64,000 nt of DNA from Leptasterias polaris (taxonomy: Eukaryota > Echinodermata > Asteroidea > Forcipulatida > Asteriidae): assembly GCA_037783415.1 (NCBI GenBank), contig JAZGTN010000016.1:2725001-2789000 (forward strand), written 5' to 3'. The notes beneath the pieces are model-generated. The model was given only the letters and a program-made list of their open reading frames with translations. It was not told the origin of the DNA and did no database searches. The position numbers and the translations under genes are program-made. Below, in pieces: positions 5,105 to 47,099 of the stretch (position 1 is its first letter; each line of letters starts with the position of its first letter).

Positions 5105-8100
5105 TGCTCAGTTGAACTGAGAGCATGCCCTCTGCCCAGCCAGACTGGTAGTGTGCCCTCTGCCCAGCCAGACTGGTAGTGTGCCCTCTGCCCAGTCGGA
5201 CAGAGTGAGAGTGTGCATTCTGTGCACAGTCCGACTTAAAGTGTGCCCTCTGTGCACAGTCCGACTGAGAGTGTGCCCTCTGCAAACAGTCAGACTGAGA
5301 GTGTGCCCTCAGAGGACAGTCGGACTGCTGCGCAAAGTCAGACTAAGAGTGAGACCCCTGGGCAGACTGGGCAGTCAGACTGAGAGTGTGCCCTCTGCGA
5401 ACAGTCAGACTGAGAGTGTATCCTCTGTGCACAGTCAGACTGAGAGTGTGCCCTCTGCCCAGTCAGACTGAGAGTGTGCCGTCTGCGCACAGTGGAACTG
5501 AAAGTGTGCCTCTGCATCGATCGGACTGAGAGTGTGCCCTCTGAGCACAGTTAGAATGAGAGTGTGCCCTCTGTGCACAGTCAGACTGAGAGTGTGCCCT
5601 CTGCGCACTGTTTGATTGAGAGTGTGCCCTCTGCGCACTGTTTGATTGAGAGTGTTCCCTCTGTGCACAGATAGACTGAGGACAGTGGGCCCTCTGTGCA
5701 GTCAGACTGAGGAGAGTGTGCCCTCTGCGCACAATCGGACTGAGAGTGTGCCCTCTGCGCACAGTCGGACTGAGAGTGTGCCCTCTGCGCACAGTCGGAC
5801 TGAGAGTGTGCCCTCTGTGCACAGTTTGATTGAGAGTGTTCCCTCTGTGCACAGATAGACTGAGGAGAGTGGGCCCTCTGTGCACAGTCAGACTGAGAGT
5901 GTGCCCTCTGCGCACAGTTGGACTGAGAGTGTTCCCTCTGTGCAGTCAGACTGAAGAGAGTGTGCTCTCTGCGCACAGTTGGACTGAGGAGAGTGGGCCC
6001 TCTTCGCAGTCAGACTGAGAGTGTGCCCTCTGCGCACTGTTAGACTGAGAGTGTGCCCTCTGCGCACTGTTAGACTGAGAGTGTGCCCTCTGCGCACTGT
6101 TAGACTGCGAGTGTGCCCTCTGCGCACAGTTGGACTGAGAGTGTTCCCTCTGTGCAGTCAGACTGAGGAGAGTGTGCCCACTGCCCTCAATCGGACTAAG
6201 GGTGTGACCCCCACTCAGTCGAACTGAGAGAGTATCCTCTGCGCAGTTGGACTGAGAGTGTTCCCTCTGTGCACAGTCAGACTGAGAGTTTGCCCTCTGT
6301 GCACAGTCAGACTGAGAGTGTGCCCTCTGCACACATTGGAACTGAGAGTGTGCCCCCTGTTCAGTCGAACTGAGAGAGTGCCCTCTGCATACAGTCGGAC
6401 TAAAAGTGTACCCTCTGTGCAGATAGTCTGAGAGTGAGCCCTCTGAGGACAGTCGGACTGCGCAGTCAGACTAAGAGTGTGACCTCTGCTCATTCGAACT
6501 GAGACATTGCCCTCCATGTTGAGTCGGACTGAGAGTGTGCCCTCTGCATACAGTTAGACTGAGAGTGTGCCCTCTGAGGACAGTCAGACTGCTGCGCAAA
6601 GTCAGCCTAAGAGTGAGACATCTCCTCAATTAAACTGAGAGTGCGCCCTCTGCCCAGTCAGACTGGGAGTGCGCCCTCTGCCCAGTCAGACTGGGAGTGC
6701 GCCCTCTGCCCAGTCAGACTGGGGAGTGCGCCCTCTGCCCAGTCAGACTGGGGAGTGCGCCCTCTGCCCAGTCAGACTGGGAGTGTGCCCTCTGCCCAGC
6801 CAGACTGGGAGTGTGCCCTCTGCCCAGCCAGACTGGTAGTGTGCCCTCTGCCCAGTCAGACTGGTAGTGTGCCCTCTGCCCAGTCAGACTGGTAGTGTGC
6901 CCTCTGCCCAGTCGGACAGAGTGAGAGTGTGCATTCTGTGCACAGTCCGACTGAGAGTGTGCCCTCTGCAAACAGTCAGACTGAGAGTGTGCCCTCAGAG
7001 GACAGTCGGACTGCTGCGCAAAGTCAGACTAAGAGTGAGACCCCTGGGCAGACTGGGCAGTCAGACTGAGAGTCTGCCCTCTGCGAACAGTCAGACTGAG
7101 AGTGTATCCTCTGTGCACAGTCAGACTGAGAGTGTGCCCTCTGCAAACAGTCAGACTGAGAGTGCGCCCTCTGCCCAGTCAGACTGGGAGTGCGCCCTCT
7201 GCCCAGTCAGACTGGGAGTGCGCCCTCTGCCCAGTCAGACTGGGAGTGCGCCCTCTGCCCAGTCAGACTGGGAGTGCGCCCTCTGCCCAGTCAGACTGGG
7301 AGTGCGCCCTCTGCCCAGTCAGACTGGGAGTGCGCCCTCTGCCCAGTCAGACTGGGAGTGCGCCCTCTGCCCAGTCAGACTGGGAGTGTGCCCTCTGCCC
7401 AGTCAGACTGGGAGTGTGCCCTCTGCCCAGTCAGACTGGTAGTGTGCCCTCTGCCCAGTCAGACTGGGAGGGTGCCTTCTGCGCACAGTCAGACTGAGAT
7501 TGTGCCCTATGCGTATAGCCGGACAGAGTGAGAGTGTGCATTCTGTGCACAGTCCGACTTAAAGTGTGCCCTCTGTGCACAGTCCGACTGAGAGTGTGCC
7601 CTCTGCAAACAGCCAGACTGAGAGTGTGCCCTCAGAGGACAGTCGGACTGCTGCGCAAAGTCAGACTAAGAGTGAGACCCCTGCTCAGTTGAACTGTGAT
7701 TGTGCCCTCTGCCCAGTCAGACTGGGCACAGTCAGACTGAGAGTGTGCCCTCTGTCACAGTAAGACTGGGAGTGTGTGACCTCTGTGCAAAGTTGGACTG
7801 AGAGTGTGCCCTCTGCGCACAGTCAGACTGAGTTTGTATTCTCTGTGTACAGTTGGACTGAGAGTGTGGCCTCTGCGCACAGTTGGACTGAGAGTGTGCC
7901 CTCTGCGCACAGTCAGACTGAGAGTGTATCCTCTGCGCACAGTCAGACTGAGAGTGTATGCTGTGAGCACAGTTGGACTGAGAGTGTGCCCTCATGTGCA
8001 CAGTCAGACTGAGAGTGTATCCTCTGTGTACAGTCAGACTGAGAGTGTGCCCTCTGCCCAGTCAGACTGAGAGTGTGCCGTCTGCGCACAGTGGCTCTCA

Positions 8101-11100
8101 CTTTCGGTACCTTATGGAGACCAAGGACAAAACAAAAAAGGGAAAACAAAAGGACTCCACATGGAATTTCTAAAGACCGGGGTGCTCCACAAGGAAATTT
8201 GTGTACAAAGTCTATGGGAAACTGTTAAGTGCAGGGACAAAGGAAAGAACAAAAGAGTGCTCCACAAGGATGCATTTTTCAGTCTGGTGGAACTGAAAAT
8301 GTGCCTCTGCATCGATCGGACTGAGAGTGTGCCCTCTGAGCAGACAGTCTGAGTGAGTGTCCTCTGAGGACAGTCGGACAGCTGCCCAAAGTCAGACTAA
8401 GAGAGTGTCCTCTGCTCAGTTGAACCGAGACAGTGCCCTCTACATATAGTCGGACTGAGAGTGAGCCCTCTGAGGACAGTCGGACTGCGCATAGTCAGAC
8501 TAAGAGTGTGACCTCTGCTCATTCGAACTGAGACATTGCCCTCCATGTTGAGTCGGACTGAGAGTGAGCCCTCTTCGCAGTCGGACTGAGAGTGTGCCCT
8601 CTGCATACAGTTAGACTGAGAGTGTGCCCTCTGCATACAGTTAGACTGAGAGTGTGCCCTCTGCATACAGTTAGACTGAGAGGACAGTCTGAGGACAGTC
8701 GGACTGCTGTGCAAAGTCAGCCTAAAAGAGTGAGACATCTCCTCAATTAAACTGGGAGTGCGCCCTCTGCCCAGTCAGACTGGGAGTGCGCCCTCTGCCC
8801 AGTCAGACTGGAAGTGCGCCCTCTGCCCAGTCAGACTGGAAGTGCGCCCTCTGCCCAGTCAGACTGGGAGTGCGCCCTCTGCCCAGTCAGACTGGGAGTG
8901 CGCCCTCTGCCCAGTCAGACTGGGAGTGCGCCCGATCTGCCCAGTCAGACTGGGAGTGCGCCCGATCTGCCCAGTCAGACTGGGAGTGTGCCCTCTGCCC
9001 AGCCAGACTGGTAGTGTGCCCTCTGCCCAGTCAGACTGGTAGTGTGCCCTCTGCCCAGTCAGACTGGGAGGGTGCCTTCTGCGCACAGTCAGACTGAGAT
9101 TGTGCCCTATGCGTATAGTCGGACAGAGTGAGAGTGTGCATTCTGTGCACAGTCCGACTTAAAGTGTGCCCTCTGTGCACAGTCCGACTGAGAGTGTGCC
9201 CTCTGCAAACAGTCAGACTGAGAGTGTGCCCTCAGAGGACAGTCGGACTGCTGCGCAAAGTCAGACTAAGAGTGAGACCCCTGCTCAGTTGAACTGTGAT
9301 TGTGCCCTCTGCCCAGTCAGACTGGGCACAGTCAGACTGAGAGTGTGCCCTCTGTCACAGTAAGACTGGGAGTGTGTGCCCTCTGTGCAAAGTTGGACTG
9401 AGAGTGTGCCCTCTGCGCACAGTCAGACTGAGTTTGTATTCTCTGTGTACAGTTGGACTGAGAGTGTGCCCTCTGCGCAAAGTTGGATTCAGAGTGTGCC
9501 CTCTGCGCACAGTCAGACTGAGAGTGTATCCTCTGCGCACAGTCAGACTGAGAGTGTATGCTGTGAGCAGTTGGACTGAGAGTGTGCCCTCATGTGCACA
9601 GTCAGACAAAGTGTATCCTCTGTGTACAGTCAGACTGAGAGTGTGCCCTCTGCCCAGTCAGACTGAGAGTGTGCCCTCTGCCCAGTCAGACTGAGAGTGT
9701 GCCGTCTGCGCACAGTGGAACTGAAAATGTGCCTCTGCATCGATCGGACTGAGAGTGTGCCCTCTGAGCAGACAGTCTGAGTGAGTGTCCTCTGAGGACA
9801 GTCGGACAGCTGCCCAAAGTCAGACTAAGAGAGTGTCCTCTGCTCAGTTGAACCGAGACAGTGCCCTCTACATATAGTCGGACTGAGAGTGAGCCCTCTG
9901 AGGACAGTCGGACTGAGAGTGAGCCCTCTGAGGACAGTCGGACTGAGAGTGAGCCCTCTTCGCAGTCGGACTGAGAGTGTGCCCTCTGCATACAGTTAGA
10001 CTGAGAGTGTGCCCTCTGCATACAGTTAGACTGAGAGTGTGCCCTCTGCATACAGTTAGACTGAGAGGACAGTCTGAGGACAGTCGGACTGCTGTGCAAA
10101 GTCAGCCTAAAAGAGTGAGACATCTCCTCAATTAAACTGGGAGTGCGCCCTCTGCCCAGTCAGACTGGGAGTGCGCCCTCTGCACAGTCAGACTGGAAGT
10201 GCGCCCTCTGCCCAGTCAGACTGGGAGTGCGCCCTCTGCCCAGTCAGACTGGGAGTGCGCCCGATCTGCCCAGTCAGACTGGGAGTGTGCCCTCTGCCCA
10301 GCCAGACTGGTAGTGTGCTCTCTGCCCAGTCAGACTGGGAGTGCGCCCTCTGCCCAGTCAGACTGGGAGTGCGCCCGATCTGCCCAGTCAGACTGGGAGT
10401 GTGCCCTCTGCCCAGCCAGACTGGTAGTGTGCTCTCTGCCCAGTCAGACTGGGAGGGTGCCTTCTGCGCACAGTCAGACTGAGATTGTGCCCTATGCGTA
10501 TAGTCGGACAGAGTGAGAGTGTGCATTCTGTGCACAGTCCGACTTAAAGTGTGCCCTCTGTGCACAGTCCGACTGAGAGTGTGCCCTCTGCAAACAGTCA
10601 GACTGAGAGTGTGCCCTCCGAGGACAGTCGGACTGCTGCGCAAAGTCAGACTAAGAGTGAGACCCCTGCTCAGTTGAACTGACATTGTGCTCTCTGCCCA
10701 GTCAGACTGGGCACAGTCAGACTGAGAGTGTGCCCTCTGTCACAGTAAGACGGGGAGTGTGCCCTCTGTGCAAAGTTGGATTGAGAGTGTGCCCTCTCCG
10801 AACAGTCAGACTGAGAGTGTATTCTCTGTGTACAGTTGGACTGAGGAGAGTGTGCCCTTTGCCCTCAATCGGACTAGGGGTGTGACCCCCACTCAGTCGG
10901 ACTAAGAATGTATCCTCTGCGCACAGTTGGACTGAGAGTGTTTTCTCTGTGCAGTCAGACTGAGAGTGTGCCCTCTGTTCAGTCGAACTGAGAGAGTGCC
11001 CTCTGCGCAGATAGTCTGAGAGTGTGCCCTCTGAGGACAGTCGGACTGCTGCGCAAAGTCAGACTAAGAGTGAGACTCCTGCTCAGTCATACTGAGAGTG

Positions 11101-11530
11101 TTCCCTCTGTGAAAGGTCAGACTGAGAGTGTTCCTTCTATGCAGTCAGACTGATAGTGTGCCCTCTGCGCAAAGTTGGGCTAAGAGTGTGCCCTCTGTGC
11201 ACAGTTGGACTGAGAGTGTATCCTCTGCGCACAATTGGACTGAGAGTGTGCCCTCTGCGCACAGTTGGACTGAGAGTGTGCCCTCTGCGCCCAGTCTGAT
11301 TGAGAATGTACCCTCTGCGCAAAGTTGGACTGAGAGTGTTCCCTCTGTGCAGAGTCAGACTGAGTGTGTGCCCCTCTCAATTGGCCCCTCTGCCGAGTCA
11401 GACTGAAAGTGTGCCCTCTGCGACAGTCAGACTGAGAGTGTGCCTCCTGCGCAGTCAGACTAAGAGTGTGACCCTGCTCAGTCGAACTGACAGTGTGCCC
11501 TGTACACAAAGTCAGACTGAGATCGGTGCC
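5105..11530. repeat. 6.4-kb minisatellite array with higher-order structure
   Basis: The array consists of 28-30-bp units. The two main kinds are cagtcagactgagagtgtgc+cctctgcgca (30 bp) and the G-rich cagtcagactgggagtgcgc+cctctgcc (28 bp). Each unit carries the odd palindrome CAGTC-A-GACTG. Units are organised in larger blocks: the segment at 7566-7763 recurs nearly exactly at 9166-9363, 8397-8738 matches 9686-10123, and 5151 onward matches 6867 onward, giving higher-order periods of about 1.4-1.7 kb. Because 30 bp equals 10 codons, short decapeptide-repeat frames open on both strands, but the mixture of 28-, 29- and 30-bp units closes them. I read it as a non-coding satellite. Confidence 0.9.
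8095..8290. other. Unique 196-bp insertion inside the minisatellite
   Basis: In the matching places of other higher-order copies (5488 and 9717) the sequence runs directly from gcgcacagtgg to aactgaaa. Here 196 bp of non-repeat sequence lie between those words, flanked by gtgg/ggtgg. It contains the internal repeat gtgctccacaagga (about 8182 and 8259). No inverted terminal repeats are obvious, so the mechanism is unclear. Confidence 0.75.
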
Positions 11531-12255
11531 CTCTTTGTCTGGACAACTCCCTTGTAGGCAATTCCGTCTAATACACTGGCCGGGACCAAAGACTGGATAG
11601 TGTCTCCATTCCAACCCACGGAACTGCCAGCACTCGGGGGCCTTTAGCTGTGTGGAGTGGTGAGCAGGGGGCTGATATGGTAAGATGGTTTTTCTCACCA
11701 GTCAGTCCCGAGGAGAGAACATTTCCCTGCGTCTGGACTGACTCATTTTGCCAATTGTGCACAATTGGAATGTACTCGACGAAACTCTATTATCATTCTT
11801 AATAAATGACAAGAACTATTTATCAGAAGTGGTGTACAGCACGCAATTGATGGAGTTCTCAAAAAAGGGTGTGTACACCATAACCTGCACTAAGTAAGAG
11901 AGGAAGGTAACATGGCGATCCAGAATGCTGTCAGTTATTGTTTGCAGATCAGAAGGGGGCGCTATTGTATGTAAACATTGTACCTGCTGATTGGGCAGGT
12001 AATTATGCACGAGGCATGCTAAATATGCTAAGTATGCATAAGTAGTGGCTCTTACAGATAAGTAGAGTGATGTAGACACAATGTATACTTATTTTAGGCT
12101 AACATTTCTATATCAAAGTTACTGTAAATACCACTGGTAAAGTAAAACAGGTGATTTATCAATAACAATACCAAAATTGATATGTAATCTTCTAATTAAA
12201 AACACATATTTTATAAGTACACCATCGCAAGCATTTTAGTTTGATTTTTAATCAT
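11531..12255. other. Unique intergenic sequence right of the satellite
   Basis: I see no gene, no strong repeat and no RNA in this stretch; the open frames present are short and lack start or splice context. Confidence 0.5.
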
Positions 12256-20149: not shown

Positions 20150-21560
20150 ACATTTGCGATGTTTGTTTTAAGTTGTAGTTTGACGTTGTGTAAACGTTGG
20201 AAAAGTGTTGAAATAACGTCGCGATTATAACAACCAAAAAACAATGTTGATCCAACGTCAATTTGGCAACGTTGTTTCAATGTAACGTTTTTGACGTATG
20301 AACAATGTTGGATAAAGGTTGTTATTGCGTCGCGATAATAACAACCTAAAATCACTGTTGATCCAACGTCATTCTGGTAACGTTGTTTCAATGTAACGTT
20401 TTTGACATATGAACAATGTTGGATAAAGGTTGTTATTGCGTCGCGATAATAACAACCTAAAATCAATGTTGATCCAACGTCTTTCTGGTAACGTTGTTTC
20501 AATGTAACGTTTTTGGCCTATGTGCAATGTTGGATAAAGGTAGCTTTTGCGTCGCGATAATAACATCCTAAAATCAATGTTGATCCAACGTCTTTCTGGT
20601 AACGTTGTTTCAATGTAACGTTTTTGACGTATGAACAATGTTGGATAAAGGTTGTTATTGCGTCGCGATAATAACAACCTAAAATCAATGTTGATCCAAC
20701 GTCTTTCTGGTAACGTTGTTTCAATGTAACGTTTTTGGCCTATGTGCAATGTTGGATAAAGGTAGCTTTTGCGTCGCGATAATAACAACCTAAAATCAAT
20801 GTTGATCCAACGTCTTTCTGGTAACGTTGTTTCAATGTAACTTTTTTGGCCTATGTGCAATGTTGGATAAAGGTAGTTTTTGCGTCGCGATAATAACAAC
20901 CTAAAATCAATGTTGACCCAACGTCATTCTGGTAACGTTTTTTCAATGTAACGTTTTTGGCCTATGTGCAATGTTGGATAAAGGTTGTTATTGCGTCGCG
21001 ATAATAATAACCTAAAATCAATGTTGATCCAACGTCATTCTGGGAACGTTTTTTTTTAGTTCCACGTAATGATTTTTACGTATGAGCAATGTTGGATAAA
21101 GGTTGTTATTGCGTCGCGATAATAACAACCTTAAATCAATTTTGATCCAATGTCAGTTGGGTAACGTCATTTCAAAACGTATACTTTTAAAAGTTAATGC
21201 AATGTTGGATGATAAGGTTATTGTTGCGTCGCGATAATAACAACCTAAAATCAATGTTGATCCAACATTATTCTGGTAACGTTGTTTCATTGTGAACGTT
21301 TTTGACGTATGTACAATGTTGTAAAAAGGTTTTGTTTGCGTTGCGATAATAACCTAAAATCGATGTTGATCCAACGTCAGTCTGGTAAGGTTTTTTTTAA
21401 CGTAACAATATTGAAGTATGTACAATGTTGGATAAAGGTTGTAATTGCGTTGCGATAATAACAACCTAAAATCAATGTTGATCCAACATTGGTAACATTG
21501 TTTCAATGTAACGTTTTTGACGTATGTACAATGTTGGATAAAAGTTGCAGTTGCTTTTTT
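20150..21560. repeat. 111-bp tandem repeats, about 12 copies
   Basis: The landmark gcgtcgcgataata starts at 20327, 20438, 20549, 20660, 20771, 20882 and 20993, exactly 111 bp apart, and then at 21111, 21226, 21338 and 21447 with decaying spacing. 111 bp is 37 codons, so the minus strand is open as a 37-residue repeat from 20137 to about 20900. That frame survives only where units are exact, so I do not call it a gene. Confidence 0.9.
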
Positions 21561-31646: not shown

Positions 31647-34600
31647 TCAGCGAGGGACCTTTGGTGTTAGTTCAATAATTTCACCAGCGATCTTCTCCGC
31701 GTTGTCCGTACACCATCTCACGAGATCAAGAACCTCGTATTCTCTTTTATCTGGGATGTCTGTCTGTATGGACACAGTATCCTTGAGTGCCACACCGTCG
31801 CACTTCTGGGCGATTTGTCGCATGGCAAGAAACTTGTAGTTCTCCTCATTAGTGCATGGTTGCAGCTAAAAAGGGTCAAAGGATCATGGCAACGGTCAAA
31901 CAAAAGTGGTAATTATAAAATGACGTTGCAAAATGTTAAGGTGAAATACGAAGACACCCTCCACCAAGTTGTTCAGCCAAGGTCCCACCCTGTTAAACTC
32001 TTTTAATATGATTATTTGATAACTGGAATTGATAGCAGTATCTCTTCCCCTCCCATGTCTGAAAAAATTCCAGTCTCTCTTCCCCATCGCGGACCGACTG
32101 AAAGTCGACCACTGTCACAGTATGTTGTGGTCTCGGGAGGAGGAGGGGTTATCTGACTTGTTTGACTCGTGTACCATCCAGCATAGTTTTCTAGATCTTT
32201 CTGTTCATAACTATGGGTTCATAATGTAGATAATAGACACAAAGCGGCAGATGGCAAACCGAATTTGGAAAATAGCAGCTAATGAGCTGGGGTGAAATGG
32301 GATTTGAACAAATGTCCACACAAATGGAAACAAGGGAGGCAGGGTACCAAACCCCTTGAACAAACCGATATGGTCCGGTGTACTTACACTGTACACCACC
32401 ATTATTGCTACAACTATCAATAAGGGAAACACAGCATCATTATGCTTACCAACACATATGTCATCCAATAGGGTTTCTTATCTTTACCCCTGGTGAGCTT
32501 GTGACGTCATGCAAAAACCATCAAGTAACCATGAACAAAAATGAAATTCTAAGCAATTTTCGTGACAGAGTGTACTCCTCGCGGAAAGTGGGACTTTTTG
32601 AGTATATTGAGAGTGGGACCATGGAGTATGGTCTACGGGACTGCATAATTATGTACAGGTCTTGCCCAAAGAAAAAACAATACAAGATGTGTTGCACTGT
32701 GACACTTAAACTTGTCCCAGTCTCACCTTTAAAACACTTTTTATTAAGTTGTCTTTATCTGGAGTGATACCCATGCGTTTGATGTCTGTTCTCAGCTGAT
32801 GGATGACCTTCCCTTCCCATCCCAGATCAGATCCTTGTGGGTGTAGGTCCTTAAACGGGAATTCCACTGATTTGCCATCTTGGCGATCCTGTAATAATTA
32901 TTAGTGGGGGAAAAGTTTTGAATTTTCTACACATAGTGCATCATTATTCTTTTGAGCTTTGCATGTTCTCGCCAAGTCGACTTGCTATTATACATGATCT
33001 CGCCGAGTGCACTTGCCGTATACAATGATCTCGCCAAGTGGACTTGCCGTATATCTGTTCTTGCCAAGTCAACATGCCGTATATGATCGCACCAAATCGA
33101 CTTGCCGTTAACATGTTCTCGCCAAGTTGACTTGCCGTATACAATGTTCTCGCCATGTCGACTTACACACCAATAAAAAATTGTAAATCTGACCTTTTTC
33201 ATTGTTTCCAAGACTGTCTTCAAAAGGTCATATGCCTCCTTGCATGTATCTCTCAGTGATTTTAGAACTTCATTCGAACTTGGGTCGGTGATCTCTAATA
33301 GGGCCACTTCGACTGCCAGGTGAGATCTGCGTAGTTTCTTACTCAAATTCCATGTTCCTTCAGCCAACTTGATCACTACTCCATCTGGGTCACCGAGTCC
33401 AGATTGATTCTTGCTCCTCTGAACAAGTGCCAGCATCTGTTAATGGTTCAACCAAATGTCAATTATCATCAAACTAAAATGATAATGATATATCACATCT
33501 CAGTTTTTTGTTTTTGAAATATTTGACTTGGAAATATGGCAACATGATGCTTCGAGAGCCACTTCGGTATACCGGGTGTTTGTTACAGCAAAGCAGTATT
33601 GTATGTGCACCTGAATTGTACTGCTACTGATGACGGGGGAAAAAACTTCTTTCAACTTTATTGAAAGTCCCTGTTTCAAATGCTTGGCAGTTGATGAACT
33701 TTCAGAGAAGCTCCTTGCAATTGATAAGACAACATTTAGGATTGTAATCACTACAGTAACGCTACTGAGGGGTAGGGACGGTGACCTTACCGAAGCCCTC
33801 GGTTCCAAAAACATCAAACAGGGCCCCTAGATCAAAATAGGGGTAACTGGGACAGAAGTACATGGCCAAGTAGTCTAGTGAACTTCAGATGACGAAAACC
33901 GACCAGACAAAACTGTTTTATTCTGTACTCTGCTAACTCAGCTGAAGGAAATAATGGACTTTGTTCTTAATGGATTTACTATTGTACCTGTGCAAGATAA
34001 TGTTACTTTACCTCGAGAAATTTCCATGTGCTTCTGATTCTGCACACAAAGTCTTCATTCTCCGTCAGGATTTTCAAAAGCTGATCTGCTTTTTCATGGC
34101 TCCCACTTCTTAAATCAGATACCAGCTCCTTTACTTTGTTGTCCAGTTCCGATGAGTCTTTCATGGTGTCATGAAAAAAGTTGCAAATCTCTTCCACTTT
34201 GTCCATGGATTGCCGAGTCATTTCCACTGGATCTTCTGTTAGACTCAGTAGATTTTCAGGTTTCCTGCTAGCATGCTTCGAGTGGCCGACTACCTCGCAT
34301 AAACTTAGCAGACACTCATACTCTTGGTTGATGCCGGGCTGTACCTATAATATATATAGCAGGCAAATATAATGTGTATAACTGACTGTACTTCCCCATC
34401 TTAACTGCTTCGTGCAGAGCCACACAGTTGTAAATCAGTGTTGGACCTAAGGGGCATTAGCCATACCACTTAAACTCAATTCATGATTACTTGATATGAG
34501 ATTGCATCAGAGACACACAGCTCCCACCCTAACCATCCCCACCCAGTTCAATGTTGCTTACACCTCTATGGACATTCCTTTGTTCAGTGCACTTAAGAAA

Positions 34601-37600
34601 ATAACATAAACACTGTAAAAACACTGTTTCCTGTGTGGACGTGTTTAAGTCCATTTTTCAAGTCCCTAAAATGTGTGAACCTATTTTGTTCGGACCTACT
34701 TTGTTCTCAGGTCCACACTTCATATAACGCTTTAATCACCACTATTATTACACATTGAACGGCCATGTGGACTGTCTCCATTCCCTTAAAGTTCCTTCGT
34801 GTATTTACCTGAAGAATGTAGTTGTAAAGCTTTGGATAATGTGTCTTCAAGTCAACTCCAAAGGTTGACTTCAGGGACTTTTTCATCTCCTTTTCCAGTT
34901 TTGTTCGATCTTTCTCCTTCATCATCAATGGAAAGTATTGCTTCCTCTTTTCTTGACTGAACTTGAGCTCCTCCATCTGCAAGTGATAACCTCTATCAGT
35001 TATTATCACTAACATTTTGTCAAGTAAAAACTGTTGAAAATGACAGGAGGTAGTTGTCCCTCTTTCAGTGAGGGAGTGATGACTGAATGTTTTCAGGTTT
35101 TATAAAAAATAATTTTTGGGAGGCTAATCATCCTTTACAATTTATCTGGAGTCTACAGTTGGACTTTTGAAATCAGCAGCCAATAAGGAAAAAAATTAAA
35201 TAAAAAATATATGAAAAAAACTTGCCCAAAACACATATGCGAGCATACTTCAGAAGTTTGTATAATCTTATAAGAAAAAAATGAACACTTAATGATTCTA
35301 AAAGCAGGTGGAACACTTAGACACAATTCATGTTGGGGTTCGCTCATTTTTTTTTTTGTGTGTGTAATGTCAAATAATAGCAATGAAGATCATTAATTGT
35401 GAGGTCTGTGATATTAAATAACTGTCGAAGTTAGAATTGTTGGCAAGAGCTTGTTAAATACATTGAATTGTTGCTTGTGTACCTGGAATTTCACAACGAT
35501 GTGATCTAATAGAGGGCGCGCTTTCTCACAGCAATCCACCGCGGCTTTCACGACATCATCACTCCACATAACTGAATTTCCTCCTTCCTCACTCAACCAC
35601 TTTGTGATCGATGTACTTCGAGGATCTTCTTGAAGTATTTTTCTCTCCATGTTGAAATAATCCTTCCAGGCGTCCGAGTAGAACTCATCTCGACTCAAGC
35701 TGTCCTTGATATCTTGCTTGATCGTGTCACAATCCATGCCCATCTGATCAGAGTCGGTCTCACGGCTGGTAAGACCGCCTACGAAGGAGAAGGGCTTGTA
35801 CTCCGTGTGGAGGTAGTCGCTAGCGTTTCTGGAACAGCACAAGTCGATTTCTGCGAGAATCTTTGTTGGGAAGAGGTTTGAAATCTGAGGTTGACTAAAA
35901 GCTCCTGCAATAAGCACTTTCAATTACAAAGATTGTTTAAATGGGTCTGTAGGACAAAACTAACCACAACATTAAAATAGTTTAATTTAAAGTTAAACAG
36001 TTCGAAAATTTCAGGCTAAATGTTTTATTTATCAATGGAGTTTCTTCAACTAAAAAGAATATTGTGGACACCAACCACTGCACTATTATATGATTTAAAT
36101 TGTTTAAAGGTGAATTTTATTTGAAATCTTACCCTGATGTACATTGATCTTGAAATTGTCTTGAGGTGACCTTTCTGGATCAGGCGCAATAGCTCCGAAC
36201 TTGCAACGAGGCTTCCACATCTAATTGCCTCTCGATAAGCATCTATGCACGGCTCCTTCACCGAATCTTGTGGGGCTGACTGCGACTGACGAATCTCCAA
36301 CAAGGTCAACCGGTTGTGTGCGGTCCACACAGCAATATCAGCCAGCAGCTTTCGACCTCGCATTTCGTCAAAATTCATCATTTTCGATGCAGTCACAACA
36401 TTCTCTCGAGCCATTCTAAACCGCCTAGCTGCTACACTTGGTTGACACTGCCCTAAATGAGAACGCACTTCTACTTCGCATCCCCATTTGAAACGAATCT
36501 CAGCAAGGTACATTGGGATCTCGACATTGCTCTTTTTAGGATCCAGACAACACAAAGCCGCCTCAGCCTTTGCAAATTCGAAAATTTGAAGATACAGAAT
36601 GCCAAGCTGAAGCCTAACCCTTTGTGGTGGTTGGTACATGTAGTAGGTGAGAAGTTTGTTGTATGCCTTTTCCCAGTCCATCTTTATCCTGTCCGCTACT
36701 TTCCATTCACCAGTGCTCTCATCTTGAGATTGTAACTCTGTAGAAATCTCCATCACACGCTGCCACATGTCAAACCTAGAGGGTGACTTGGTACGGTCTA
36801 GAAATCTAGCATAGCAGTAGAAGAGGTGGAACCGATCCTCAGGTGGTAAAATATCGGACTGTTGAAGTTTGTCCTCACAGAGACGTCGTGCGGATTCTGT
36901 ATCTCCACAATTGGTCAATAAATCTAACTTTTTCGTGAAGGCAAACAGGTGCATCTCGTCAAGCTTCAAACATGTATCCAGCTCATATAAGGCTGCTCTT
37001 GTGAGTTCGGGTTCGTTGTTTTTTGTTTGTCTACGGATGTAGCACAAAGCCAGTTGAAAGTGACTCTCAGCAACATGTGCGTACGGCATTTTGTCAATGT
37101 TGTCCTTCAATATACGTATAGCCTTTTCTACATCATGATATCTGTAGTGCCTGATTAAGTTATTGAACGTAGCTCTCACTAACGGCGCCTGTTGAAAAGC
37201 CTTCTCTAATTGAAAACGAGCAGATTTGTTATAGTTCTGTCCTCGTCGGTTAAAATTTTGTCCAAGGAATGACCTTCCAAGTTGATATTCATCATTTACT
37301 TTTATCAGTTTTTCACACAAAATACGCTCCTTGTCCATAAGTGATTTTCTATCAACGCCGAGTTCATCATAAGTCTCATATATCTTTCTGTTGTAACGCA
37401 TCTTTCTTCCGGTCATCAGCATAGCTCCAAAGAGAAAGTCGGGACACTCAGGAAAATGTTTCAGCGCTGCCTCAAAAATGTCAAGTGCATTGTCGTGTTC
37501 CTGCGGCCCGAGCCTTGTCAAACATGAAGCCTTCACGGTATTAATTACACACATATCCTTCTCCGTTAGGTCTAACTGATTCAATTCGGCCAGTAAGCTT

Positions 37601-37953
37601 TCAACTTCCCTGGCATTTAGGATCTTCTGCTCAATCCACATTCGGTTAAGCAGTGCGACACTTTTATAGCCATTACGAAAATCTGATGGTGCATGGTTGA
37701 GTATGTAATCATCTGCTTCATCAAGAAATTCGCGCGCTTTTCTCACGTCATAACGAAAATAACGACTCGATACTTCCAGATAAGCTCTAAATAACAGGTT
37801 TCCAGCAGTGAAAAGGTTTCTGGTTATTATCAGGTCACTGTCAATTTTACCAACGATTTTCGCGTAGTTCAATCGATCGCCGGTGTTGAGTTTCCACGTG
37901 AAGTGGCATGGACGATCCTTCCAATTACAAGCTCTATCAGTATAAAGAGCCAT
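31647..37953 (-). CDS. IFIT-like TPR protein with long C-terminal extension (gene A, intact)
   Basis: Hand-spliced coding exons on the minus strand: 37953-36133, 35860-35483, 34976-34809, 34344-34012, 33436-33194, 32888-32727, 31865-31647. They sum to 3324 bp (1107 residues plus stop) with every intron in phase 0. Residues 16-22 are CHFTWKL, the signature at the start of vertebrate IFIT proteins (interferon-induced, TPR-built, cytoplasmic binders of foreign RNA). Residues 1-607, all in one exon as in IFITs, are helical TPR-like repeats with IFIT-like blocks such as ESHFQLALCYI and LFYCYARFLDRTK. The start has a perfect Kozak (ACCACCATGG) just after an acceptor (TTGTACAG, 37970), so a 5' UTR exon lies upstream. 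Residues 608-1107 are a helix-rich region I cannot assign. Vertebrate IFITs are about 400-500 residues, so this protein is more than twice as long. Confidence 0.85.
32945..33175. repeat. 30-bp minisatellite in an intron of IFIT-like gene A
   Basis: About seven units of 'ctcgccaagtcgacttgccg' plus 'tatacaatgtt'. Each has at its centre the palindrome CAAGTCGACTTG, intact or with one change. It lies 20 bp downstream of exon 33436-33194, and its open minus-strand frame merely extends that exon past its donor. Confidence 0.85.
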
Positions 37954-38040
37954 GGTGGTATCTCAGGACCTGTACAAAATCAAGTGAAACGACAATGAAA
38001 AGAAAAACTGAAACAAAACCAAAAACAAAAAACGAACAAA

Positions 38041-38075
38041 CGAACAAACGGGCAAGCGAGCAAGCAAGCAAGCAG

Positions 38076-38107
<32 letters not shown>

Positions 38108-38125
38108 ACAAACAAACAAAAAACA
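38041..38125. repeat. (CAAG)n/(CAAA)n microsatellite
   Basis: About 14 tetranucleotide units, mostly caag, passing into caaa. Open frames on both strands here are artefacts of the repeat. Confidence 0.95.
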
Positions 38126-38554
38126 AATAATCACAAGTGTTTTGGGAATTGGTGACACCAACATTTAAAAGGAAAGTATTTTCCCTAGGAATTTTTAAAG
38201 TTGGCAAGAGCTTTATCAAAACATGAATAACGCCAAGATGAAATTGTTTTTAATTTGAAGCTATCAATCAGAACTTGTTAACAAATATTGATTGCCTGTT
38301 TTTGTTTAGTTTTTTCGTTTTGGGGGGAGGTTGATAGGGGCCCTACATGGACATTCTGTTATCGCGAGTTTTACTTCATTATTGTTCGATTTGCATAATA
38401 TTTTAAACAAAAATGGTTAATTGTTAATTAAATTACGGAGCTCTGGAAGTTGTCCGACATGTTAAGATCCTGAGATAATTAACTGCAGGGTGATGACATC
38501 ATAAACGTAAAAGATGACGAAATCCTGAGATACTATTCTCGGGATGACGACATC

Positions 38555-38765
38555 CTGAAATGAGATGTCGACATCATGAAACTAAGATGTCGACATCATG
38601 AGAGTAAGATGTCGACATCATGAGAGTAAGATGTCCAAATCATAAAGTAAGATGTCGACATCATGAAAGTAAGATGTCGACATCATGAGAGTTAGATGTG
38701 AAACTTCATGAAAGTAAGATACCGACATCATGAGAGTAAGATGTCGAGATTCCGAGACAAACTAT
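38555..38765. repeat. 22-bp minisatellite with GATGTCGACATC palindromes
   Basis: About nine units of 'gatgtcgacatcatgagagt'+aa. Each full unit holds the 12-bp perfect palindrome GATGTCGACATC. Related but more diverged words (gatgacgacatcctgaa) extend the array to about 38480-38830. Confidence 0.85.
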
Positions 38766-39406
38766 CTCAGGATGACGACATGCTGAACGTAGGATGTCAA
38801 CTTCCAGAGATAATTCATCTTAGGATGATAACACCCTGTCGATACATAGATATGTAATTTGGGATTTTACAATTGAGTGTTGATCCAAAGACTCCATTAC
38901 TTTGTCTATTTTTGTGTCTTTGACCCCCAATTCATAACCATATGCGAGTAAATCATGGCCAATTACTGTCGATCCATTGTGACTACGACTAGGCGGCAGT
39001 GGGTATGCCCTGGAACGTTCATTTCACATTCATTTTTAAACGTGCCCAGTGACTGAAATTGGTAACTTAAAAAAAAAAATATATAATGATAATAACCACC
39101 GTAATAAATTATTAGTCTGGTTCCACGCCAACATTGTCTTTGTGACTTCGTAGTAAGGAGACGGGAATCAGAGAAGTTATACAATTTGGATTTATTTCCC
39201 CCAAAAATTATCATCGGGGGCCACAAATTATAAAAAATAAAGAAAAAAAGTTTTAGATATCCTTTTGAAGAACGGAAATAAAATTGTATTAGTGAAAGAA
39301 GAGCAGGCCATGTTTTTAGTTTTGGGGATGTAAAACAGCTTTAGTGTCTGCATGGGTATACATAGAAAATATGCACTATTTTATAATTATGACAAATCAT
39401 GCTTAC

Positions 39407-39445
39407 CTTGCACACAGCAGTTCTGGTCGATTCACTGTCTCCTTG
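39407..39445 (-). other. Predicted non-coding first exon of IFIT-like gene A (left limit approximate)
   Basis: A strong donor (TGTGTGCAAG|GTAAGC) ends the exon at 39407 on the minus strand. No start codon is needed, since the first ATG lies 16 bp into the next exon. The transcription start is not defined by the sequence. Confidence 0.4.
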
Positions 39446-39460
39446 CGGATGACTTAATAC

Positions 39461-39470
39461 TTTCAGTTTC
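39461..39470 (-). promoter_or_regulatory. ISRE/IRF-binding core upstream of IFIT-like gene A
   Basis: The minus strand reads GGAAGAAACTGAAAGT, a perfect match to the IRF/ISRE core GAAANNGAAA. Vertebrate IFIT promoters carry such elements close to the transcription start. Eight fixed bases would occur by chance about once in 33 kb on two strands, so the position is suggestive rather than proven. Confidence 0.5.
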
Positions 39471-39570
39471 TTCCAAATCACGTATGATGTGTTGGATTGC
39501 GGGCATTTATTTTACAAAATGACCAAATTATCCCGGTCTGCTTATGTCATATTTTGCATGCAAAGTACTC

Positions 39571-39580
39571 GGAACAGAAA
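39571..39580 (+). promoter_or_regulatory. ETS-IRF composite (EICE-like) match between the two IFIT-like genes
   Basis: GGAACAGAAA fits the ETS-IRF composite consensus GGAANNGAAA exactly. It lies 101 bp beyond the ISRE core, in the intergenic region of the divergent pair. Function is inferred. Confidence 0.35.
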
Positions 39581-39599
39581 ACTGCACCACACCTAATCC

Positions 39600-41267
39600 G
39601 GAACTGTGGTTGGTATTGCCATGGAGGTAGTATTGCGTAGGAAGGAAACAAAACAGGGTATTCCCCGAACGACGTGTGGGGTCATTTTGGCACTACAGCA
39701 ATGCTGTACGAGCCGCGAACTGACATTTCATGTTTGCGAGACGAAACCAGGGTATTATGGTGGCCCTGAAGAGACAATAAACATAAATATTGACGTCAAT
39801 ATTCATGACAAAAAATCACGATTTGGGCTATTTATGTTCGATGTCCTTTCGGGGACACCATAGGGAATTCCTGGACGATGTCACTTAAAATATGTTGCAG
39901 GGTACCCGTACGCACAGAGCTCCGTGCAGTACGGCAGAGTGCCAACAACGGAGCGACCATCGGTCTCTTTTTACTTTTACTTAGGGCTTACTCGGTAGGA
40001 GATTGAGTGTGGTCAGAAAGTTGGGGAGAATCTTACTTTTAGTGATTTCATGTTTGGTAAGAATGTGATCTGGATTGTGGAAGAGAGTATCATACTTCAC
40101 GTGAGTTTTCATTTTTCTTACTTCAATTAGTCTCTCATGAAAAAGTGCTTATAGGTCATTGTGTTTTTCAATTTTCAGGAAGACTTATGGTTATGCTTGA
40201 CCAAACATTTTGCTGTCAATTTTTCTATCAGTACTGGGGCGTAACTTTTTATAAGAACCACTTGCACTGCACAACAACGTTTTGATATTGACGGTTTTTC
40301 CTGAATGTATTATGCACGCTTTAAAACGTAACTACGTATCTCAAACCGTCGACGTCGTCGGGCTTTTTAACAGGCGCCCGTCTCATTGTGGAAACAGTGC
40401 AGTCAATGTCGTACAAATTGTTCCCATGCTCAAAATGTTCGTGCAGGCCTATAGTCCAATGTGATAGTTAGCGTCACAATAACATCCACAATGCTCACAT
40501 ATAGAAGGTTTCGTATTTCCATGTAAGGTAATTTGCCGCCGTAGTCATGACGTTGCCCGCAGGTCAACCATGCACTATAGAAACTGGTTCACTTTGTTCG
40601 GTACACACAAACAGCGACGATTTGTTGTCAAAATCTTTCTCCTTCAGGAACCAAAATTGACTTTCACTATAGTTTGATTACAACCTGCTGCTCCTATTTT
40701 TGCCGATTCAGTTTGTTAATGCTATCAAACGGTTAACAAGTGTAAATGTTGTGTTCTGTGTTGAGTGAACGATTATGATTGCGTTGTTATGGAAGTGGCG
40801 TGAACCAGTGTCAAGGAAGAAGCGATCTTGGTCTTTGAAAACCCCATGCGTTCAAAGTCTAACAAATTGATGAAAAACTTGGGGGTACATATCAACAGAT
40901 AACGTTTCTTTGTTGATTTTTTATCAACTTACTTCACGTAGTGAAAGTTACCTTAGTGTGGGCCTAATTTTATTAATGCTGAACGGGACAGTTTTGCCCC
41001 GTTAAAAATGCTTGAACCGAGTTTCGTATTAGACAATTATCTTCACTAGTGTATTTAAATCAAAGTTAAAAACCAATTTGTTTACGAAAAATTTCTTCTA
41101 ATTTAGTGTTATTTGTATATTTTTCTCAGTAGTTTGTTTGAATAAATCAGTAGAGTAGGCCTATATTCACATAGTTTTTGCGCAATATAAATGTCCGTTT
41201 TATTGTTATTATTATAAAATAAAAAAATAATCGGTTTAAGTATTTCATTAATTGTGTTTATCAACAG
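39600..41267. other. Intergenic region between the divergent IFIT-like genes
   Basis: It must contain the promoter and any 5' UTR exon of gene B (an acceptor tttatcaacag is at 41267). A possible donor is tttg|gtaagaatg near 40057, but I cannot decide. Near-matches to TTTCNNTTTC occur at about 40108 and 40168. An 85-codon plus-strand frame at 39606-39863 has no clear coding character. Confidence 0.4.
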
Positions 41268-41274
41268 TTTAAAC

Positions 41275-44200
41275 ATGGCCTCGAGTGTTGTATTACAAAA
41301 CGAAACCCTGCCATGGAAAGAACAACCATGCCATTTCACCTGGAATCTTTCTGCTGGTGATCTCACGGATTTTGAAAGGATCATACGTCACGTAGACAAC
41401 GACCTGATAATGTCCCCTGACTTGCTTCGAGTGGATCAACTGCTGTTTAGAGCGTATCTAGAGGTGTCCGACGGCAGGTTACACTGGAATGTCAGTAGAG
41501 CGAGGGAATTTCTGGACGAAGCAGACAAGTATATACAGAACCAAACAGAACCAGAGCTTCAGCCTGGCTACAGAAGGGTGGCACTTCTCAACCGCATATG
41601 GATAGAACACAAATCTATTAATACCAAAAAGGTAGACGAACTCTTGTCCAAGCTGAACGGTTTAGGACAAACAGATGTACTTGTTGTAAAGACGCTACTT
41701 GCAAGTGCTCTAACGCGTTTGGGGCCTACCATGTTTACAAGGTCTTTGCAGATCTATGAGGAGGCACTCCAACACTTCCCGGATAATCCTGGTTTTCTGT
41801 TTGGAGCTTTACTAATGTCCGGGAGGAAAATGCGATTTGAGAGATCTGTTGGGAGTCTGTATGAAGACCTGGATGAATACGGCAAGAAGCTTATGGACAA
41901 GGAGCAGGAATACTGCAAGGAATTTGATCAAAGTAAACGATGAGTACCAATATGGCAAATCATACCTCGGACTAAATTTAAGTCGACGCAGAGATAGAAG
42001 AGACGAGGCTCGTCAGCTCCTGAAAGAGGCACATGATAATGCTCCCTATGTGGAATCTGTTTTTAACAACTTGATGAGGTTTCACAGACGTGACGGAGAT
42101 CCTGATCTCCTGGATCTAGCTATATCAAAATATGAGTCCGTCTTTCCTCCGCATAAATCAAATCATGATGTTCCTGAAAGTCACCATCAGCTGGCATTGT
42201 GCTACATGTGTAAGGCTAATAAGTGCATGGACAACACTGAACAGAAAAAATCGTGGCAAAGCAAAGCCCTCATCATTCAGTTGGATGAATGTCTAACGAT
42301 CGAACCGATGCATTTTGTAGCTGCTTTGAAGAAGGTGCAAATATTAGCAGATCAAGAAAAAGAAGATGATGCAAAGAGACGTTGTTACGAAGACATTCTT
42401 CAGAAGTCGGAACATTATTCAATAGTCAACAAATTAACCCTTTACATTGACTGTGCTAAGACGGGGTCTTCTTTAGACTTAGAAATGTGGCAAAAGGTAA
42501 TGGATATACTTCCATCGTTTGAATACCTAAATGAAACATCGTGCAAATGGGAACTTAGAGGAAATAAGGCAAAGGACGCAAGAGTGACTGCATTTGACAA
42601 GCTACACAGTCACTACCGGGGTCAAGAAAATGTAAACCTACGTCTTGGTATTTTGCACTTTCAGAACTTGGATTTTGAAAAAGCTATACAGAAATTGGAA
42701 GAGTTGAATCCCAAAACCAATCTGGACATTCCATGCTACCTTGCGGAAGCGTACCAAAAATGGGGTCGTGAAAAAGAAATTAGCAATGAACCAACAGAAG
42801 CTGTCAGAGAATGTTACGAGAAAGCTCACCGGAATGTTTCTGATGCACGAGAGCAAGGTCTAAATTTACCCCGGTGCCAAAAGTTGCTGTCTGATACGGC
42901 GTTAGCTATCGCCCATTTCAACCTTGAAATAAACACATACCAACAGAGCCCCAGTCGGATTCAAGTTGAATCTGATTGTGTCGAGTCATACCGCGAAGCT
43001 ATTAGATGTGGAAGCCTTGTTGCCAGTTTGGAGGTGATACGACTGATTGAGAAAGGGTTCCTCAAACAAACGCCACGATCAAAGTTCCTCCAGGTATGCT
43101 GAACGTTTTACTATTAAACTTTTAAATCGATTACAAATATCATAAGAAAAATAAGAGTTGTGATTTGAGAACGTTTCATTGAACTCCCGTTGCCTCCTGA
43201 CTTAGAACCAAATAGTGGGAATGACCTGTACGCATGAGGTACTGCAAATTCTAGCTTTTACTTTCAAGCTTTGGCCTCTGGTTGGACTCATAAAAATAAT
43301 GGATCCGACAAGGCAGGGGTAGACACTACTATAGAACGATCCACCCACTCCCCACCACCCGCCAACACACCGACACTACACACAAAATAAGAACATTAAG
43401 ATTAATGGTCTTAAACTGGTACTTGATGAATTAATTTAGATCCTTGCAGAAATAGACGTCTGCTGTTCACAGAGCCCGAGTGATTGCTTGCATCGAGAGG
43501 TGAAACCACGTTCCTTTGTGAACGGTCTCAACAGTCGAGACACCGACACTGACACATTTGCGTTGGACTGCAAGCAGATCAAGCGAGTCATTTTGACCAC
43601 TTTGCATCAGAACACCTTCTTCAGGCAGGTATGGGCGCAACAGTTTGCAATGGAGAAGAAAGTGCTTGAAGAGAGATTTCAAAACAACGAAGGAGAGCTA
43701 GAACTGGATGGGCGGGAGAAAAGTTCAACCAGGAGCGTTTCCATAGAAGAGATGTACGCTGCCGTAGACAGCTGTGAGAAATTACGCCCTCTGTTGGACC
43801 ACATCATTGTGAAGTTTGAGGTACAAATCAACAACAAAAAACTAGTAAAACTGAGAAATAATGTTTATGTTTTTCACTCGTTTTTTCTTTTCGTTTGCTA
43901 TTAAAAACGAGGTTAACTTTACGCGTAAAAACACAAGAGAAAAATCTAACATTCACGATGACAATCTAAAATGCACGATAACAATATGCACGCTTGTGAC
44001 AAGCTCCATAAATTATTATTTATTTAACATCTTGTACCAGCTATTGATTGAAGGGTTTGCAGCAACAAATAATAATGAAACCGAAATGAGCTACATTATT
44101 TTCCCCTTCTTGATAACAGAAAGGTGAACTTGGTATACGCGAAGAGAAGAAAAAATATATTTTCCTCTTGTCTTTGGGGAGGAGGATTCCGTAAGGACAG

Positions 44201-47099
44201 TCGAAGTACTTCGAGAAAAACTTCAATCGTACTTTGAGATTAACTTTGAAGAGCACTATCCAAATCTCTTTAAGAAACTTGTTCAGGTAAGTTATGCATG
44301 ATATTATTCACATCAAGTCTTTTATAGCCGTTCAATACTTAACACAGGCCATTTCAGTGCTAAAGATGCTGAGGATTGTTTTCTTTAATCGTGGCAAGCT
44401 GATCAAACACAGCTATTGTATGTTTGGGAAGTCTGAACCCCAAAGATTTAAGATAGAAGACTGGTGAAAATAAACACCGCCCGGTGGTGATAGCTGCAAT
44501 ACAGACTGTATAGCACATTAGAGCAAGGTGAACATACAAATATATTTATATATAAAACAAAACAACAACAATAACCAAACAAATAAGCAACAAAATAAAA
44601 ACACCGCAGCTGACTAAATTCATTTAAAAAAATCTAACATTTTGGGGGATCATTCTTCTCCAGATACAGCCGGGCTGCAACTCCCAGAACGACTTCCTCG
44701 AAACATTCTACACTCTGGTAAATCATGTCAAACACAGTGGGATACAGACACAAGAAATCTTGAAGATAGTTGAGGATCCTGTGAAACTGGCTCGCCAGTG
44801 CACCGATAAAGTTGAAGAGATATGCAACTTCTTTTTCGACGCCATGAAAGAGACATCAGATTTGCGAGAGAAGGTGAAAAAGCTTTTGTCTGATTTGAAG
44901 GTACGAGTAATATTTATAAATATCAACGTTAGGGCCCAACTCTTTCAACAATTATTGATGAAAATAGCTTCGACCTTCTAATATATTCTAACTTATATCG
45001 TAGGGGTATTTGGGACGTGGGTCTTCAAGACAAGAGATGGATGCGGACGAAGCGTATGGAAAGGCAGACGAACTTTTGGGGATACTTACTACTCATCAAG
45101 ATTTCATCGCAAGGATGGGGAGTACCTGGAAGCTCCTCGAGGTAACAATGAACGGTGATATCTTTTTCAATCAAGATCCTCTGAATTGTGTCATTTTCGT
45201 ATAAAATAAATTATAGAGAAAACGAGAGAAGAAAATATAAGCACCACGTTGTGCTCTGTCATCTGTTAAGCGTTGTACCGGTACTTTTACAGTTTCTCTC
45301 CCCGGTCGACAGCAAGATTTTACCTCCTTCCCAGGGTACACAAGCCATAAACAACCCAGGGAGACCCAGCATATCTGGCAATTGTTCCCCCATTGAGAAC
45401 AAATATCTTTTGTTGACAGTTTTCTCAAGCAATTAATGCCACAGATTCCACAGAAACAACACGATTACCTAACCGTTTTGCAAGGTTTATGGTTTGCTTA
45501 ATATGCAAACTTAGTTTTTTGATGATGTAAGTTCTGGTAATGATTTTATGAATCCAGATGCTAGCACTAATCCGACAGAGCACAGTGCATTCCGACCAAG
45601 AGGAGGCAGCAAACAAGGTGGCAGAAGGGACATGGGAGACGAGTAAGAATCTACGCCAATCCCACCTGGAACTTGAAGTGTCCCTATTGCAGACCGCCGA
45701 CCGAAGTGCGAATGAAGTTCTTGAGAAATGTAGAGAAACTTGCAAGGAGGCGGATATACTCTTAAATGAAGTGATAAAGAAGAAAGGACGGGCAAGTACA
45801 GTTAAAATTGACCAAACAAAACATTCAAAACATTGCAAGTCACATTTGCCAGAACGGTTAGTATTGTTCCCCGACCCCTAAAAGAATTCCAAATTCTCAA
45901 ATTGTTATAATCAATTAACAGAAGCAGCACTGGGAAGGCACAGCAACAAACCCATCAACAAGCCCTTCGCATATGACGTCATAATGATCAAATAGTGCAT
46001 GCTACCACGGAGGTCAAAAGGAGAGTTGTGTGGGCGCGTAAACACGTGACAGTTTCTATTGTTTGACCTCTACTTCTTGAAAGGGGAGTCGCCTCTCTAA
46101 ACGACAATTTGAACCACCAAATTCAGACCAACGGATACACCGTAAAGTTTGAATAAATAATTTTGTTTCTGCCCAATTTAATACAGGGCCAACAAGATGA
46201 CGCAGAGGTGGAATTTCCTCTTCGAGATATGCACCCTGGAAATGATATCAGTTCCTGGAAGGGAAAAGTGAAAAAACATATCAAAAAATATCTCCACGAA
46301 AAAGGAATCAATCCTACTGACGAGTTACTGAAGGTTATGTTACAGGTAAGGAAGTGTGTAATCAACACTAGCCTCAACCAATCAGCGGCAAGGCCAGAAA
46401 CGCCGACTAAAAAAAACAACCCTAAAACAAACAAAAACCCTATCTGTGCTTGGTAGCCGATTTAGTGTATAAGGGGTCGGGGTTTCACCTGGGCCCCCTT
46501 GCACAAAGTATCCAGTCTGTACAGCCCTTTACCTTTTACAATAAAATACGTGGGTTTTACTTTCTGTGTAAAAGTTCATACTATATAAGGTGTTTAAGAG
46601 GTTTGGACAAACCTGCTCCCCGCAGCATAGCCTGGATTCAACCCAACGCCCCATGCGGAACAGAATGTGAGACAAAAAGGGTAGCACAAGCACCCACCCC
46701 AATCCCATAACAGAATGGACTTGCTCCCGAGTCTTGGGTCTATACCTGATCACCACACACTGATTTGGCTCCAGGGTTTGTCTAACGTCAGTTCAGATCT
46801 AGTCGAGACTTCTTAGGGCTGGACTGCTATCTTTAGGAGTTTGTGGAGTGGATATAAAAAGAAAATAATGTCATTTTCTTGTTATTCAGGCACAGCCATG
46901 CAGCAGTGAGGAAAACTACAATTTTCTTCTCATGCGAGAGTTCCTTAAGGAGTGCGATGGTGGCAGCGGCGTCATACCAAATGCAGTTTCCATACAAACA
47001 GACAACGATGAGACAAAGACACTCTACGCAGTTGAGCTTACTCGATGGTGTACAAATAATGCTGAGAAAATTGCTTCCCAGGTTCAGCTGGTAACTTAG
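41275..47099 (+). pseudogene. IFIT-like TPR gene B, same architecture, two frameshifts
   Basis: Exons by comparison with gene A: 41275-43093, 43440-43820, 44120-44286, 44664-44900, 45004-45141, 45558-45791, 46187-46345, 46890-47099. The product would be about 1113 residues. It has the IFIT signature CHFTWNL at residues 20-26 and matches gene A along its whole length, including the C-terminal extension (for example KVEEICNFFFDAMK, and RWCTNNAEKIA near the end). Two changes break it: one extra T at 41923-41925 and two extra bases in the AT run at 44155-44160. Otherwise all exons are open and all introns are phase 0. The intron after 45791 uses a GC donor (CGG|GCAAGT). Either a young pseudogene or an intact gene with assembly errors. 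Confidence 0.75.
45960..46075. mobile_element. Fragment of the MITE family found at 51667-51839
   Basis: 'catatgacgtcat', 'aggtcaaaaggagag' and 'tttctattgtttgacctct' correspond in order to 'catatgacgtcat', 'aggtcaaaaggaaga' and 'tttccattgtttcatcat...acctct' of the 51.7-kb copy. It lies in the GC-AG intron of IFIT-like gene B. Confidence 0.55.

Follow-up and report, generated by a model that had tools for sequence, protein, structure and literature searches.

Are IFITs, the textbook effectors of interferon that hold foreign RNA by its ends, a vertebrate affair, or does a starfish carry them as well? The question is raised by a 64,000-nucleotide stretch of the Leptasterias polaris genome (contig JAZGTN010000016.1, positions 2,725,001 to 2,789,000; hereafter the window), where open frames and homologues define two long genes of the tetratricopeptide repeat (TPR) type in divergent orientation at 31647-47099. 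A sequence-only reading had taken them for a head-to-head pair of IFIT-like genes; the two divergent TPR-type genes are indeed present, but one of them (gene 2) is frame-broken and a long C-terminal extension had been missed. The excerpted text of PMC3688568 dates the origin of IFITs to jawed vertebrates, reports none in the sea urchin, and rejects candidates from acorn worm, amphioxus, lamprey and hagfish. Among the open-licence literature matches listed, none described IFITs from starfish or echinoderms, and an earlier report may exist elsewhere; the IFIT passages in the excerpts of PMC3750612 and PMC9334734 concern the unrelated IFITM proteins. The explanation that best combines our results is that gene 1 and gene 2 are paralogues belonging to a branch of IFITs in starfish; to this explanation as a whole, with the inferred steps on RNA binding and the C-terminal extension given below, we assign a probability of about 0.7.

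By sequence comparison, the similarity to IFITs is beyond chance. A single-sequence phmmer search against the PDB gave no match up to E 1. With a profile of 10 family sequences, IFITs occupied ranks 1-9 of 70 PDB matches (the best 60 of the 70 being listed), with E values of 8.8e-17 for IFIT5 and 1.7e-5 for the best non-IFIT. The profile of the N-terminal half (A2) ranked IFITs 1-6 of 47 (best 4.4e-18), and that of the first 100 residues, a region N-terminal to the strongest TPR hit of Pfam in gene 1 (residues 154-178), ranked them 1-8 of 20 (2.7e-4 to 0.075, next match 0.17), one more IFIT being at rank 15. The structures of IFIT1, IFIT2 and IFIT3 were the next-best profile and structural matches to the starfish proteins. 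In the reverse direction, a hidden Markov model (HMM) of 8 vertebrate IFITs detected 13 of 15 starfish N-termini under default filters (P0010 and P0019 were missed) as well as the two gene 2 pieces; with the filters off, all 17 of 17 sequences were matched, the weakest at 4.7e-8 (E value for this small set). Starfish and vertebrate IFIT profiles aligned collinearly over 359 columns (E 1.9e-26). The reverse HMM and profile–profile results are not independent, because the 8 IFITs came from the search with the starfish profile. The 8 non-starfish matches in the protein database were all vertebrate and named IFIT or IFIT-like (P0017 by its UniRef name only), a result weaker than it appears, as scoring was limited to the 7995 candidates with the most exact 5-residue words in common, and words of the CHFTW type favour IFITs. 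For the same reason, that no other invertebrates appear among these matches does not show that they lack such proteins, and some of their proteins may carry automated "IFIT5-like" names.

Both proteins had been said to start with the IFIT hallmark CHFTW, and both gene products do begin with PCHFTW (CHFTW being residues 16-20 in gene 1). The motif is found in 14 of 15 aligned starfish N-termini (P0021 has YHFAW), in gene 2 and in 8 of 8 vertebrate IFITs, and N99, W102, H286, Q288 and C292 are likewise common to the starfish proteins and IFITs. In the structural comparison, made with the model of an orthologue, the IFIT superhelix fold was recovered across the full length, and IFIT structures aligned from one end to the other and much better than other TPR folds did. 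From profile homology and this model, residues 1 to ~490 would form an IFIT superhelix with an N-terminal CHFTW cap. The proposed IFIT affinity is thus supported: the profile search ranked IFITs first, and profile, reciprocal, N-terminus-only and structural comparisons agree.

Several results weigh against this assignment. Identity to IFITs is only ~20% (about 18-20% for IFIT5). Gene 1 gave only sub-threshold TPR matches against Pfam (best E 0.0027); of the earlier label of IFIT-like TPR proteins, the beyond-chance IFIT similarity stands, but TPR content alone is weak evidence. With profile A2, a further three IFIT rows fell at ranks 9, 11 and 19, amid engineered TPRs (1.9e-9) and O-GlcNAc transferase (1.7e-7). 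The model used in the structural comparison belongs to an orthologue rather than to a protein encoded in the window, and solved structures were part of AlphaFold's training. To these points belong the losses in the RNA pocket, the frame changes of gene 2 and the count of interferon-response motifs, given below. TPR profiles attract one another, as the engineered TPRs outranking three IFIT rows illustrate; the likeness could then be that of generic TPR repeats in a separate family whose superhelix came to resemble that of IFITs by convergence. We consider this very unlikely, as the first-100-residue profile ranks IFITs at the top upstream of the best TPR match, the end-to-end structural alignment far exceeds that of other TPR folds, and CHFTW and the five further residues are common to both groups. 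Membership of the IFIT family by descent is likely, and the ancient origin suggested earlier is plausible.

The nearest proteins to gene 1 are the uncharacterised Asterias proteins P0001/P0002 (72%), and a query with the C-terminal half also retrieved proteins of Acanthaster planci and Patiria miniata (order Valvatida). The closest named proteins come from Asterias, Patiria and Acanthaster, in keeping with the echinoderm host that had been guessed from the letters; the identities point to a starfish near Asterias. Those sharing the family with the gene pair (P0001-P0003, P0006-P0010, P0019-P0024) are listed as "uncharacterized protein". The expanded family, also foreseen, is seen in Asterias amurensis, which has at least 8 distinct members (P0002, P0003, P0006, P0008, P0009, P0010, P0019, P0020), five of them on contigs of one length (21907694) and hence probably on one chromosome. 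In a tree of starfish and IFIT sequences only, midpoint-rooted for drawing, gene 1 groups with P0002 of A. amurensis (support 100/100) and gene 2 is sister to P0005, P0006 and P0019 (100/99). Because each gene groups separately, the two arose by duplication before A. amurensis split off. The chance that the genes represent vertebrate contamination or a recent transfer, in favour of which nothing was found, is negligible: they have introns and ~20% identity to IFITs, A. amurensis has a close relative, and the family is distributed over several species in two starfish orders.

We compared the RNA pocket across 15 starfish N-termini using IFIT5 contact positions from the excerpted text of a single paper (PMC9677429); excerpts of PMC12543323 and PMC13197388 give those of IFIT1. 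MAFFT and HMM alignments agree that the K150-equivalent is R in 15/15 rows, the K257-equivalent R or K in 15/15, and the R186-equivalent R in 11/15 and Q in 4/15, and that D189 is replaced by R and Y254 by N in 15/15. Basic residues are found in 7/15 rows at the R253-equivalent, in 1/15 at R294 and, depending on the alignment, in 0/15 or 3/15 at K48. Conservation is patchy, with only half of the six basic contacts in IFIT5 kept; still, 3/6 pocket K/R positions are basic in at least 11/15 rows vs. 4/46 other K/R positions (one-sided Fisher p 0.026). Compared with human IFIT5 (PDB 4hot, 4hor, 3zgq), Q41, R294 and mostly K48 are changed, and the E33 position has E in 0/15 rows in either alignment (D in 7/15 in the HMM alignment). 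Because of these replacements, the specificity of the channel is probably altered.

The pattern suggests a putative phosphate- or RNA-binding channel with changed specificity. RNA-end binding by the starfish proteins is plausible, and we put it at even odds: the central channel would most likely still bind the 5' end of single-stranded RNA, through basic residues at the IFIT5 K150, R186 and K257 positions and a starfish-specific arginine at the D189 position. The half of the basic contacts that is not retained and the large additional C-terminus would also suit true IFIT descent with RNA binding lost, the proteins acting as scaffolds like many TPR proteins. This appears unlikely given the basic residues at the K150-, K257- and (in 11/15) R186-equivalents, a basic R192-equivalent in 14/15 rows, and H286 and Q288 invariant in 15/15.

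The starfish proteins continue ~600 residues beyond human IFIT5. The extension proper, which IFIT5 lacks, runs from residue ~620 to the end, nearly 490 residues and nearly half of each protein. It gave nothing above a family's cut-off in Pfam and no convincing match to the PDB by sequence. In the model it is mostly helical, with two short strands preceding the last helix. Within P0002, residues 750-860 and 990-1106 are related (hhalign 96.5%, E 8.4e-10), whereas the other 5 module pairs reached 0.069 at best and none of 24 comparisons between C-terminal modules and N-terminal slices fell below 0.002; by this comparison, the extension holds a predicted duplicated module. The motif of HEPN domains is R-x(4-6)-H; a VN...KH stretch seen by eye is without the arginine, and no such family was found for 4 C-termini (one cut short) in Pfam up to E 5. 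Two fish IFITs, P0016 (Hoplias, 956 aa) and P0018 (Labeo, 1056 aa), likewise consist of an IFIT part and a long extension; their precomputed Pfam domains, PF04548 and, in P0018, also PF00619, are not listed for the scanned starfish proteins. Known IFIT complexes assemble through the IFIT C-terminus, and it is there, where IFIT1, IFIT2 and IFIT3 form complexes, that the starfish proteins are extended. Our guess is that the extension probably serves in oligomerisation, in recruiting partners or in an effector step.

The gene structures are given in Table 1. According to the excerpted text of PMC3688568, vertebrate IFITs have a short first exon ending just past the ATG and then the coding region in one large exon. 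The IFIT part of the starfish genes is also in one exon, but that exon contains the ATG and is followed by 6-7 others. The single large exon had been recognised earlier; in gene 2, however, that exon changes frame. The spacing of the genes had been put at about 1.8 kb; the start codons are 3321 bases apart. Gene 1 is intact, its seven exons all having lengths that are multiples of 3, 6/6 introns being GT...AG and the frame staying open through to the stop (1107 residues). Directly 5' of its ATG, a pyrimidine-rich tract with a terminal AG, noted by eye, suggests an intron in the 5' untranslated region.

Table 1. Exons of the two genes and the gap between them, in window coordinates
Feature	Coordinates	Strand	Content and basis
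Gene 1 exon 1	36133..37953	-	entire IFIT-like region, 607 aa; open frame, donor GTAAGA; 72% identity to A. amurensis P0002
Gene 1 exon 2	35483..35860	-	C-terminal extension begins; tblastn 72% to P0002, AG/GT sites, length divisible by 3
Gene 1 exon 3	34809..34976	-	tblastn to P0002 and splice sites
Gene 1 exon 4	34012..34344	-	with exon 3, most of C-terminal module B (module comparison); tblastn and splice sites
Gene 1 exon 5	33194..33436	-	part of module C; tblastn and splice sites
Gene 1 exon 6	32727..32888	-	module D, first part; tblastn and splice sites
Gene 1 exon 7	31647..31865	-	module D, second part; tblastn 78% to P0002; stop codon 31649-31647
Intergenic gap	37954..41274		start codon to start codon, 3321 bases; 22-base tandem array and one ISRE-like motif at 39461
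Gene 2 exon 1	41275..43093	+	IFIT-like region; two overlapping open frames, frame break near 41920-41930
Gene 2 exon 2	43440..43820	+	tblastn 80% to P0003; start from listed acceptor sites
Gene 2 exon 3	44120..44286	+	start placed by eye (acceptor list, frames); apparent second frame break near 44140-44166
Gene 2 exon 4	44664..44900	+	tblastn and splice sites
Gene 2 exon 5	45004..45141	+	tblastn and splice sites; in gene 1 not split from exon 4
Gene 2 exon 6	45558..45791	+	tblastn; then apparent GC-AG intron, donor GCAAGT at 45792 (by eye, from frame and homologues)
Gene 2 exon 7	46187..46345	+	tblastn and splice sites
Gene 2 exon 8	46890..47099	+	tblastn and splice sites; stop at 47099

Gene 2 has 8 exons and two frame changes, one in exon 1 and an apparent one in exon 3, where no other-frame acceptor was found in the stretch scanned. 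In exon 1, tblastn identity to P0003, P0006 and P0019 is 72-78% before the break and 52-66% after it, in two frames. An alternative donor at 45795 after exon 6 did not preserve the frame. Either gene 2 died recently or the assembly misreads it. That it is dead, with gene 1 the sole working copy, is what the two apparent breaks would mean if taken at face value; set against this, the remaining exons are open, the pieces match P0003 and P0006 of A. amurensis at 52-80% identity, and each break coincides with or lies close to a run of T or A, a context prone to sequencing errors. We see the two outcomes as evenly balanced.

Tandem repeats are found in and around the genes. An intron of gene 1 holds 31-base repeats (ATGTTCTCGCCAAGTCGACTTG..., 32963-33164), and the 22-base array (GATGTCGACATCATGAAAGTAA) lies at 38543-38747. 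A very long tandem-repeat region at 5116-11534, with units of ~28-30 bases (ACTGAGAGTGTGCCCTCTG...), accounts for long repetitive open reading frames such as 6840-7442 and 10188-10739, and an array of ~12 copies of 111-base units at 20179-21547 accounts for that at 20369-20923.

Motifs resembling the interferon-stimulated response element (ISRE; GAAANNGAAA) showed no enrichment, 8 being found vs. 5.5 expected and one of them lying in the gap. By analogy with IFIT1 and IFIT5, the starfish proteins may have an antiviral role and would keep the RNA that they bind out of translation or replication. A tentative scenario, which we rate somewhat below even, is that IFIT-type sensors of RNA ends predate interferon and go back to the common ancestor of echinoderms and chordates. 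Starfish would then have kept an enlarged family that works independently of interferon, its RNA tunnel joined to a new C-terminal module that serves as the effector. Should starfish indeed have a multigene family with the IFIT fold, this RNA-end sensor would have arisen before interferon, and starfish would offer a system for asking what IFITs did without it.
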